From Pseudofrankia saprophytica (lineage in GTDB: Bacteria; Actinomycetota; Actinomycetes; Frankiales; Frankiaceae): a stretch of 64,000 nucleotides of DNA. The notes beneath the pieces were generated by a model. It was not told the DNA's origin, ran no database searches, and saw only the letters and a program-made list of their open reading frames with translations. Below are positions 3,584 through 6,977 of the stretch, piece by piece (within the stretch, counting starts at the first letter, position 1; every line of letters starts with the position of its first letter). Both the position numbers and the translations under genes were made by a program. Location of the stretch: positions 1,621,686 to 1,685,685 of the forward strand of contig NZ_KI912266.1 of assembly GCF_000235425.2 (NCBI RefSeq), in the 5' to 3' direction.

Positions 3584-4088
3584 TCGGTCCCCCTCCGGAC
3601 GCATCCGAGTTGGGGATCGGAATCCGTCAACCGGCCCGGGTGACTGGGCGGCTTGGCGTGTAGCCATTTCCGCTGGTCACCGGTCTGGCGGTCACCGTAC
3701 CGCGTGGCGACCGTGCCGCCCGGTGATCGGGCTGCCCCGTCGAGATGCCATCCGGTGACCGTGCCGCCGTATCCCCGTCCCACAGCGTCACATCGACAGG
3801 ATACGCGGGGCAGACCAACCAGAAAGCGGTCTGTTCACGCTTCCCGCCATTCATCGACCAAACAGCGCGAAACCCTACCCGGAGGTCGTAGGTTCCCTCC
3901 GTGGTCCGGATGCGTGATGGCCGGTCCAGGAGCCCTGCTCAGCCCATGACCCGCCGATCGGCTGGGTGAGGAGGTGGCGATCGTTCATACGGTCGCGCCC
4001 ACCCACTCGGCGGCCGATCGGCGGGGACCGCCGGAAGCGTCGGTCCGTCGGTCCGCCTGTCAGTGCTCGTCGGTCCGTCGGTCAGTGC

Positions 4089-4199
4089 TGACACCGCCGG
4101 CGGTCTCGCCGAAGACGCCCTCGGTGCGGGCGAGCAGCCGCATGCCCTCGACGGTCTCGCCGTCGGTGGCGTCGGTGGCGTCGGTGATCACGCTGCCGG
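4089..4199 (-). pseudogene. Partial duplicate of threonine synthase (thrC) 3' region
   Basis: This 111-base stretch repeats bases 4503-4604 of thrC with only scattered substitutions plus a 9-base in-frame addition (a tandem gtggcgtcg). On the minus strand it still reads SVITDATDATDGETVEG, then the same MRLLARTEG block with FGETAGGV, against VITDVTDDEIVEG in the intact gene. The flanks are unrelated to thrC, so it is an isolated fragment, not a full second copy. It lies about 120 bases beyond the thrC stop. The frame is open from 4302 to 4060, but there is no start signal or complete domain. I call it a duplication scar that has drifted modestly while keeping frame. Confidence 0.7.
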
Positions 4200-4227
4200 C
4201 GCGGCTTGTCGCCGCTGGTCGCTGTGC

Positions 4228-4320: not shown

Positions 4321-5607
4321 TCAGTCGTCGCCGAGCCCGGCCGCCTCGAAGGCGGACAGGGTTGGCGGGATGGTGGCCGTCGGGACGGTGTTGCCGATGA
4401 GGGGGTCGAGGGTCTTCAGGCCGTCGCCGGTGTTGTAGATGACGGTCTCGGCCTCGGGGTCGAGCAGGCCCTCGCGCAGCTGGCGGCGCAGGTTGGCGAC
4501 GGTGACGCCGCCGGCGGTCTCGCCGAAGATGCCCTCGGTGCGGGCGAGCAGGCGCATGCCCTCGACGATCTCGTCGTCGGTGACGTCGGTGATCACGCCG
4601 CCGGTGCGCCGGGCGACGTCGAGGGCGTACGGGCCGTCGGCCGGGTTGCCGATCGAGAGCGACTTGGCGATCGTCGACGGGCGGACCGGCGCGACCGTGT
4701 CGGTGCCGCGGGCGAACGCCGCCGCGACCGGGTTGCAGCCGGCGGCCTGCGCGCCGAACACCTTGTACGGCGACTCCTCGACGAGCCCGAGCCTGATCAG
4801 CTCGCGGAACGCCTTGTCGATCTTGGTCAACAGCGAGCCGGACGCGATCGGCACGACGACCTGTTGGGGCAGGCGCCAGCCGAGCTGTTCGGCGACCTCG
4901 TAGCCGAGCGTCTTCGAGCCCTCGGCGTAGAACGGCCGGACGTTGACGTTGACGAACGCCCACTCGTACTCGTCGGCGAGCTGGCTGCACAGCTTGTTGA
5001 CGTCGTCGTAGTTGCCCTTGATCGCGACGAGGGTGCCGCCGTAGACGGCGGTGGAGACGATCTTTCCGTTCTCCAGGTCCTGCGGGACCAGCACGATCGA
5101 GCGCAGGCCGGCGTGGGCGGCGTGCGCGGCGACGGAGTGCGCCAGGTTGCCGGTGGAGGCGCAGGCGACGGTGGTGAAGCCGAGGTCGCGGGCGGCCGAC
5201 AGCGCGACGGAGACGACCCGGTCCTTGAAGGAGTGCGTCGGGTTGGCGCTGTCGTCCTTGACCCAGAGGGTCTTCATGCCGAGCTCGGCGGCCAGCCGCG
5301 GCGCCGGGCGCAGCGGGGTGAAGCCGGCGTCGAGGGATACGCGGCGGGCCGGGTCGTGGCCGGCGGGAAGGAGGCCGACGTAGCGCCACAGGTTGCGCGG
5401 GCCAGCCTCGATGGAGGCCCGGGTGACGCGGCGCAGCCGGTCCTCGTCGTAGGAAATCTCCAGCGGAGCGAAGCACTCGATGCAGACGTGCGAGGGTGCC
5501 AGAGGGTAGGTTGCGCCGCAGTTGCGACAGGACAGACCTACCGCTGGGTTCGCGGTGTCATCTGAGGTGAAGCCCGACTGGGCAGAGCGCTCCGGCGCAA
5601 GAGTCAT
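4321..5607 (-). CDS. thrC: Threonine synthase
   Basis: 428 residues, normal length for the family. The pyridoxal-phosphate enzyme converts O-phosphohomoserine to threonine in the cytosol. The N-terminus has a small zinc-ribbon-like CxxC...CxxC (Cys27, 30, 42, 45), seen in many prokaryotic threonine synthases. The PLP-lysine motif NPTHSFKDR has Lys128. A phosphate-binding loop (ASTGNLAHS) and the C-terminal GIFGETAGGV block are intact. ATG at 5607 has GAGGAG at 5618-5613. That ribosome site overlaps the 3' strand of the riboswitch closing helix, so translation is probably blocked when S-adenosylmethionine binds. The gene seems to be transcribed alone, because a hairpin follows the stop and the next gene upstream is divergent. 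Identity is clear from the continuous match to the family pattern. Confidence 0.97.
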   Translation of the reverse strand: MTLAPERSAQSGFTSDDTANPAVGLSCRNCGATYPLAPSHVCIECFAPLEISYDEDRLRRVTRASIEAGPRNLWRYVGLLPAGHDPARRVSLDAGFTPLRPAPRLAAELGMKTLWVKDDSANPTHSFKDRVVSVALSAARDLGFTTVACASTGNLAHSVAAHAAHAGLRSIVLVPQDLENGKIVSTAVYGGTLVAIKGNYDDVNKLCSQLADEYEWAFVNVNVRPFYAEGSKTLGYEVAEQLGWRLPQQVVVPIASGSLLTKIDKAFRELIRLGLVEESPYKVFGAQAAGCNPVAAAFARGTDTVAPVRPSTIAKSLSIGNPADGPYALDVARRTGGVITDVTDDEIVEGMRLLARTEGIFGETAGGVTVANLRRQLREGLLDPEAETVIYNTGDGLKTLDPLIGNTVPTATIPPTLSAFEAAGLGDD

Positions 5608-5615
5608 TGGAACTC

Positions 5616-5853
5616 CTCATCTTTCCCGGGGCCGCCATGGCACCACGGGTCGGAATTGGCACCTGCCGCGGAGGTGCGCTCGCGTCGTCCGGTTGCCCTG
5701 CCTGTCCCGTCGCGCGGAGCGCGACACTGGGTCCAGGGGCCGCCTCCCAGGGGGAGATACGGCTAGGACGAACCGCCCGAAGGGCGGCGAGCACACTCAT
5801 CCGCTCGGTTGCCGGGGCTTCACTGGGCCGTTCCCTCTGCCCCTCTGGATGAG
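5616..5853 (-). promoter_or_regulatory. SAM-I (S-box) riboswitch with very long P3 arm, controlling thrC
   Basis: Read on the minus strand, the element opens with CTCATC (5853-5848), then AGAGGGGCAGAGGGAACGGC and CCAGTGAAGCCCCGGCAACC, the canonical P2/kink-turn/pseudoknot core of SAM-I riboswitches. Near the end it has GGTGCCAATTCC (J3/4) and GGGAAAGATGAG; GATGAG (5621-5616) pairs exactly with the opening CTCATC to form P1. Between the core and J3/4 lies about 145 nt where most family members have a short P3 hairpin. This insert carries its own hairpins at 5709-5725 (GTCGCGC stem) and 5773-5787 (CCGCCC stem). The thrC Shine-Dalgarno sequence GAGGAG (5618-5613) shares bases with P1, so SAM binding should hide the ribosome site. 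No intrinsic terminator is seen, which favours translational control. Confidence 0.85.
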
Positions 5854-6128
5854 CCATCTTCAGTTGTGTCTCCGTACTGTAGACCGACGCACCTCCGAGC
5901 GCACCGCACTTCTTGGCGTATGCACTGTGACGCCGCTTGCGTCCTAGCGCTCGCCCGGGCATCGGCGGGCCCTCTTGGCGGATGCTGTCCCGTGGGACTG
6001 CCGGCCTGAGCGCGAGCCCACCGGAGGTCCACCAGCGTCGCTGGGACATTGCAGATCCAGGCCTGTGGCCGCGGGGCCGACGATGATCGGACCGCGCGAC
6101 CAGTGGGCCCTCGGGAGGAGCCGCGCAC

Positions 6129-6977
6129 GTGAGTGTCCGTGTCGTCTACACCGACCTCGACGGGACCATGGTCGGGCCAAAGGGCTCGTTCTTCCTGGCC
6201 GAAGCGTCTCCCGACGACGCGCTGCGCGGATCTCCGGGGACGTTGACGCTCGCGGCCGCGCAGGCGCTGCTCGACCTGCACACCGCCGGCATCGTGCTGG
6301 TCCTGGTCAGCGGGCGGACGCGGCCGCAGCTCGTCGAGGCCGCGGCGATCTTCGGCGCCGACGGCTTCATCGGTGAGCTTGGCGCCATCGTCGGCTGGGA
6401 CCAGGGCCGCCAGAGCGAGATCCTGCGCGGCGCCATGCCCGAGCGTTTCAGCCAGGTGCCCGAGGACCTGCTGCACGAGCTGATCGCCGCTCATCCGGGC
6501 CGCCTGGAACTACACACCCCGTGGCACACCGGGCGTGAGCTGGACGTGATGTTCCGCGGCAAGGTCGACATCGCCGCCACCGACGCCTGGCTGCGCGCCG
6601 CCGGCTATGGCTGGCTCTCGCTGCGCGACAACGGGCTGATCGCGCCCGCCCACATGCCGGACCTCGGCGTCAACCCGCACGTCTACCACCTCGTGCCCGA
6701 CGGCGTGGGCAAGGGCGAGGCGGTCGCCTGGGATCTCAAACGGCGCGGCATCGACCCGTCGGACGCCATCGCGATCGGAGACTCCGCCAGCGACCTGAGC
6801 ATGGCCAGCCACGTCGGCCAGATGCATCTGGTCGCCAACGCCCTGCGCCACCCGGACATCGCGGGCCTGCTGCCCGCGTACGACAACGTCGTCGTCGAGA
6901 AGGAGCCGGTGACCCTCGGCTGGGCGAGCGCCGTCCGCGCTGCGGTCGCGACCTGGCAGTCCCCACCGATCGGGTAG
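6129..6977 (+). CDS. HAD-superfamily phosphatase (Cof / mannosyl-phosphoglycerate phosphatase-like)
   Basis: 282 residues with all four HAD motifs: DLDGT at Asp9/Asp11 (nucleophile and acid), VSGR with Ser61, the conserved lysine at about 195, and GDSASD with Asp218/Asp222 for Mg2+. The insert between motifs II and III (about 80-185) makes a C2-type cap, placing it in the IIB group with Cof-like sugar phosphatases and mannosyl-3-phosphoglycerate phosphatase. It is cytosolic, with no signal peptide. The GTG start has GGGAGGAG 8 bases upstream. The substrate cannot be read from sequence; the convergent trehalose synthase gene 18 bases away only suggests a sugar phosphate. It is divergent from thrC, so the 275 bases before it must hold promoters in both directions. 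Confidence 0.85.
   Translation: MSVRVVYTDLDGTMVGPKGSFFLAEASPDDALRGSPGTLTLAAAQALLDLHTAGIVLVLVSGRTRPQLVEAAAIFGADGFIGELGAIVGWDQGRQSEILRGAMPERFSQVPEDLLHELIAAHPGRLELHTPWHTGRELDVMFRGKVDIAATDAWLRAAGYGWLSLRDNGLIAPAHMPDLGVNPHVYHLVPDGVGKGEAVAWDLKRRGIDPSDAIAIGDSASDLSMASHVGQMHLVANALRHPDIAGLLPAYDNVVVEKEPVTLGWASAVRAAVATWQSPPIG

Follow-up and report, generated by a model that had tools for sequence, protein, structure and literature searches.

The RNA encoded at positions 5855-5614 on the minus strand of the window, the 64,000-nt stretch of Pseudofrankia saprophytica DNA analysed here, is a SAM-I riboswitch by its covariance score, and it very likely works as a translational OFF switch on methionine synthesis through the metM-like gene that follows it. 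We infer both SAM binding and the OFF direction of the response. When SAM is plentiful, P1 would be stabilised; the first half of the Shine-Dalgarno (SD) sequence, five bases before the ATG, lies in its 3′ strand, so that ribosome initiation would be blocked, metM translation would fall and less homocysteine would be made from O-phosphohomoserine. When SAM is scarce, P1 would open and metM would be translated. The translational OFF mechanism is known, because direct control of a ribosome-binding site (RBS) by SAM-I, with the RBS in the 3′ strand of P1, is described in PMC2258182. A point against the OFF-switch reading is that the exact P1 pairs span just half of the SD. The coordinates of the features are collected in Table 1.

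Table 1. Positions of the riboswitch, its substructures and the downstream gene in the window.
Feature	Position	Strand	Basis or remark
metM-like gene (model name thrC), 428 aa, N-terminal CxxC..CxxC, PLP-enzyme fold	4321..5607	-	PF00291 235.9 bits; TIGR00260 278.5 bits; clade apart from ThrC
SAM-I riboswitch aptamer, full Rfam model span	5614..5855	-	RF00162 47.0 vs 44.4 bits
P1 5′ strand CTCATC	5848..5853	-	exact complement of 5621-5616; pairs unchanged in 8/8 genus species
P1 3′ strand GATGAG	5616..5621	-	pairs exactly with CTCATC 5853-5848
Shine-Dalgarno GAGGAG	5613..5618	-	first three bases within P1; 5 nt before ATG at 5607
Possible -10 box TACAGT	5876..5881	-	TAnnnT pattern, by eye
P3 insert, 143 nt, between GGCAACC and GGTGCC	5664..5806	-	sequence; fold z -3.67 over 5812-5660
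Candidate decoy GGATGAG	5796..5802	-	complement of CTCATCC 5853-5847
First insert hairpin CCGCCC-TTC-GGGCGG	5773..5787	-	predicted fold
Inner hairpin GTCGCGC-TCC-GCGCGAC	5709..5725	-	kept in 6/6 species whose aligned insert reaches that far

The match to RF00162 covered the full model (1-108) with an E value of 1.6e-9 and lay only 2.6 bits above the curated gathering cut-off. Helices P1, P2, P3 and P4 are present in order in the covariance alignment, and they are kept, nearly invariant, in all eight species of the genus. The Rfam scan of the window gave no other RNA match at gathering level, and a scan of the whole genome (9.98 Mb) returned only this SAM-I match and no second one. The first-pass annotation had read a SAM-I core on the minus strand from the letters alone, and its kink-turn side, its J3/4 and the exact pairing of P1 are all found where it had placed them; the covariance search that it had proposed returned the SAM-family match above the cut-off. 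It had also noted that GAGGAG overlaps P1. The overlap exists, but three bases, not four, are shared with the exact P1 pairs.

Folding of a 276-nt leader gave a z of -1.85, with 10 of 200 shuffles as good, and P1 was absent from the unconstrained minimum fold; it was present when the segment from P1 to the ATG was folded without extra flank. Upstream of P1, the possible -10 box follows the actinobacterial consensus TAnnnT, and a sigma-70 scan found no promoter site. The short motif ACAAC (window 5867-5863, minus strand) precedes P1 by no more than 24 nt at 78 of the 107 metM-linked SAM-I loci, and at 59 of the 107 it sits at exactly -12 from P1; it is a conserved 5′ leader motif and perhaps marks the transcript start.

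The derivation of the SD from the 3′ strand of P1, which the first-pass annotation had proposed, recurs in close relatives, where the P1/SD overlap is kept throughout: GATGAGGAG was found in all 35 family elements (those of genomes G000-G034, Frankiaceae). In 33 of these 35, the start codon lies 5-8 nt past GATGAGGAG, which leaves little room for a terminator. Premature termination of transcription is common in SAM-I elements of other phyla, and a SAM-I element before a metK-like gene, found in our phylum scan (L243), has a hairpin and a run of T behind it (by eye). For the window element, however, control by premature termination instead of translation is highly improbable, given the position of the start codon in the family and a search of 5560-6140 that found no terminator-like site (shuffles averaged 0.2); a transcription terminator for this element was rejected on that search. 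The direct SD-sequestering SAM switch that had been envisaged therefore stands as far as the overlap of the SD with the P1 3′ strand and the lack of a terminator in the region searched are concerned, but not in its target, as the gene is very probably not a threonine synthase.

Outside the family but within the same class, GATGAGGAG was present in 37 of 72 elements, and in many of these leaders the start codon lies further downstream (by eye). Downstream of P1, many leaders outside the family (L077-L129) run on as GAGGAGAAAGG(G)CCTCGC or similar, again by eye. The CCTC in these leaders could pair with the GAGG of the P1 3′ strand, and a different expression platform is possible there.

The gene at 5607-4321 is a threonine-synthase homologue but very probably not a threonine synthase. 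The same genome holds a second thrC that scores higher on TIGR00260 (305.1 bits) and sits inside a separate hom-thrC-thrB cluster (hom and thrB named by eye), and each of the 12 genomes searched contains two thrC-model matches over the cut-off, one per kind. In a tree of 29 proteins, built from 12 ThrC-like proteins, 12 riboswitch-linked proteins and five named homologues with unchecked leaders, and without the S. albulus MetM sequence, the clade of the window protein was split from ThrC with a support of 100/100. ThrC proteins are only 36-40% identical to the window protein. The N-terminal CxxC..CxxC is present in 105 of the 106 riboswitch-linked proteins checked, the lone miss (L097) having a run of N that breaks the frame at that place, and it is present in none of the 12 ThrC reading frames.

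The window protein fits MetM, a threonine-synthase-like homocysteine synthase, and we infer its reaction from this fit. MetM was reportedly found in 2024, in the work of Hasebe et al., to use O-phosphohomoserine together with thiocarboxylated MetO, which is encoded downstream. PMC12172450 describes the identification by Hasebe et al. of MetM as a homocysteine synthase in Streptomyces, a SAM riboswitch upstream of S. albulus metM, and a metO-like carrier gene adjoining the Microcystis homologue.

A SAM switch on threonine synthase, by which SAM would set threonine synthesis, was the view of the first-pass annotation, and it was not borne out. It can draw on the TIGR00260 score of the window protein, which is above the model cut-off, on the nearest solved structures by sequence, which are threonine synthases, and on the Microcystis homologue, which made threonine in vitro according to PMC12172450. 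The score and the in vitro activity also count against the MetM reading, as does the statement of PMC12172450 that this homologue did not fully fill the role of MetM in cells. That the gene is a real threonine synthase is nevertheless very unlikely, in view of the separate thrC in the hom-thrC-thrB cluster of the same genome, the pair of matches in all 12 genomes, the place of the window protein outside the clade of that ThrC, and the MetO-like neighbour found at about half of the metM-linked loci (see below). If the gene is metM, SAM would reduce the making of homocysteine, and O-phosphohomoserine would remain available for threonine. The earlier proposal that SAM sets the split of O-phosphohomoserine thus named the right branch point, but the branch that would be throttled is the opposite one.

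Directly behind metM, at window 4081-4212 on the minus strand, lies a fragment of about 40 codons that is 71-73% identical to metM residues 331-371. No comparable metM fragment was seen behind metM in the DNA examined of the other seven species of the genus.

SAM-I matches were found in 118 of 146 genomes, the window's own genome included, at 123 places. A homologue of the window protein lies downstream of 107 of the 111 SAM-I elements examined in relatives, and these homologues are 58-100% identical to it, save one 52% match that is cut by a run of N. Other genes were also seen directly behind SAM-I: GNAT acetyltransferase-like genes in two different genera (L052, whose protein was scanned, and L090, by eye), a 2OG-oxygenase-like open reading frame (L127, by eye) and an ABC transporter ATPase frame (L128, by eye). 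In the phylum sample, SAM-I was present in 103 of 198 genomes, and the downstream gene was viewed in one of them (L243). The open-access literature searched yielded no paper linking a SAM riboswitch with Frankia.

A MetO-like frame follows metM within about 180 nt at 53 of the 72 class loci outside the family. These 53 are the only cases among the 107 loci: such a frame was found behind metM at none of the 35 family loci including the window, of which 25 covered the end of metM plus 500 nt. This counts against carrying the S. albulus case straight over to the family, although an adjacent metO belongs to the gene neighbourhood and does not define the enzyme. The sulphur carrier in the family would therefore have to come in trans. 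Candidate carriers elsewhere in the genome are 51% (L006) and 37% (L007) identical; the former lies close to a weak PALP match (C1:8127525-8127812), which is taken to be cysM. The genome also contains a metX-like gene with a score of 435.9 bits, under the model cut-off of 500, a value that no control genome passed. This gene adjoins a Cys_Met_Meta_PP enzyme. MetM would thus not be the sole route to methionine, and it is probably a second route.

The switch class and the RBS mechanism being already known, the unusual feature of the window element is its P3 arm. The first-pass annotation had estimated about 145 nt for this arm, in good agreement with the measured 143 nt, and the arm is structured beyond dinucleotide shuffles: for the stretch 5812-5660 the folding energy is -85.6 kcal/mol, whereas 200 dinucleotide shuffles average -71.05 and none of them was as good. 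The length of the P3 insert was measurable in 107 of the 111 elements. In the eight species of the genus it is 50, 89, 143, 146, 147, 198, 219 and 238 nt, compared with 16-25 nt in the 27 other family members; among the remaining metM-linked elements with a measured insert, none exceeds 70 nt. A long P3 as a trait unique to the genus was rejected: the metK-linked SAM-I element elsewhere in the phylum (L243, genome G321) has an independent insert of 131 nt, which makes a long P3 a rarity in these samples and no more than that. The Rfam family model shortened such elements, reporting four of the eight genus elements as 62 nt and one as 89 nt, and family-model scans can thus miss or shorten SAM-I elements with a long P3.

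The longest arms of the genus contain several hairpins, and that of G002 carries repeated GGTCAG-type hairpins (by eye). At the place of the first insert hairpin, G001-G004 have hairpins of other stem sequence, as seen by inspection of a poorly aligned region, and to the eye this hairpin looks re-paired; one pair of the inner hairpin is G-U in one species. Covariation in the P3 arm, a check that had been suggested with the first annotation, was weak. In the eight-sequence genus alignment, two-sided changes occur at 3 of 57 consensus pairs, with a covariation term close to zero, so strong covariation proof for the arm was not obtained. A repeated element as the source of the insert was rejected, as 136 nt from the insert region, searched against the genome it comes from, matched nowhere but at its own place. 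The long P3 is an enlargement, specific to the genus, of a helix in which changes of length are tolerated, and the arm is most simply viewed as a peripheral extension that may have grown by gain and duplication of hairpins.

A variant reading of the arm, suggestive and not our main claim, comes from a putative copy of the P1 3′ strand near the start of the insert. In folding models, this GGATGAG could pair with the P1 5′ strand once transcribed and hold P1, and P3 with it, open, which would delay closure or bias the switch ON. The P3 of the genus might then have been recruited into the expression platform, with a decoy at the beginning of a roughly 90-220-nt arm that would capture the P1 5′ strand during transcription and put off or counter the closing of P1 as a form of kinetic timing. 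We consider both the decoy and this recruitment rather doubtful. In their favour, exact complements of the P1 5′ strand lie near the insert start in six of the eight genus species (9 nt long in G001 and G003, 7 nt in G004-G006 and the window). The count covers the 104 metM-linked elements whose insert was measured at 8 nt or more, and in the 96 of these that lie outside the genus no complement run of at least 6 was found; the other 8 are those of the genus. However, the decoy has one mismatch in G002 and is absent in G007, it was noticed after the fact, and 1.6% of base-by-base shuffles, which keep base content only and not dinucleotides, reach a complement as in the window. When the two sub-groups of the genus are compared, identity is 95% in the decoy block and 57% in insert columns 63-160, but it reaches 100% in the neighbouring flank at the arm's base anyway, and a small local hairpin could also account for the conservation of the block. 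Rfam itself placed the P1 3′ strand on the decoy in the 62-nt matches of four species.

In predicted folds of partial transcripts, the decoy pair probability at length 66 was about 1 in the six species with the decoy, and none of 200 inserts from the same kind of base-by-base shuffling matched that capture in the three species in which shuffles were run (window, G001 and G004). At lengths 90 and 120, the capture was matched by 1 and 17 of 200 shuffles in the window, by 1 and 3 in G001, and by none in G004; the 17 at length 120 speak against the decoy. Equilibrium folds of the window gave almost full pairing of the P1 5′ strand with the decoy at 60-70 nt, values of 0.07-1.00 for transcripts of 75-180 nt and no more than 0.02 once 200 nt is reached, and the dip to 0.07 at length 80 is a further point against it. 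At full length, the modelled decoy state is the minimum in G001 and G003, by 4.2 and 9.3 kcal/mol, but in the window the true P1 is favoured by 9.1 kcal/mol, and in G004-G006 by 6.4-9.6 kcal/mol. The SD remains partly paired elsewhere in each of the six decoy states modelled, and the metK-linked SAM-I element has a 131-nt insert and no decoy. No paper title on a P3 decoy in a SAM riboswitch was found in the open-access literature searched.

With the translational OFF switch on metM as the preferred reading, thrC-model genes behind actinobacterial SAM riboswitches are probably metM, which would correct a likely misnaming; what SAM controls at the O-phosphohomoserine branch would then be methionine and not threonine. 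In the genus, one riboswitch arm on one gene occurs naturally in eight lengths (50 to 238 nt), a series that suits the question of whether co-transcriptional folding is altered by an internal decoy or by a peripheral arm as such. If the decoy reading were true, this would be a SAM-I switch with built-in kinetic timing.

Several known systems resemble parts of this arrangement. The metK-linked element of L243 likewise has a long P3, of independent origin, but differs from the window element in the hairpin with a T run that follows it and in its longest complement to its own P1 5′ strand, which is 5 nt. Ordinary SAM-I elements differ from the window element in the length of the P3 insert, as seen in the other family members and outside the genus. 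The S. albulus metM switch, as PMC12172450 presents it, is likewise a SAM riboswitch before a MetM gene of the threonine-synthase family, and MetM proteins that group with Kitasatospora, from genomes of a Streptomyces-like genus, share the clade of the window protein. The differences are that the P3 inserts at the seven loci of that Streptomyces-like genus are 31-67 nt and that no adjacent metO was found in the window's family. In its P1/P2/P3/P4 layout and in the RBS carried by the 3′ strand of P1, the window element is the same as the RBS-in-P1 type of SAM-I (RF00162) set out in PMC2258182.
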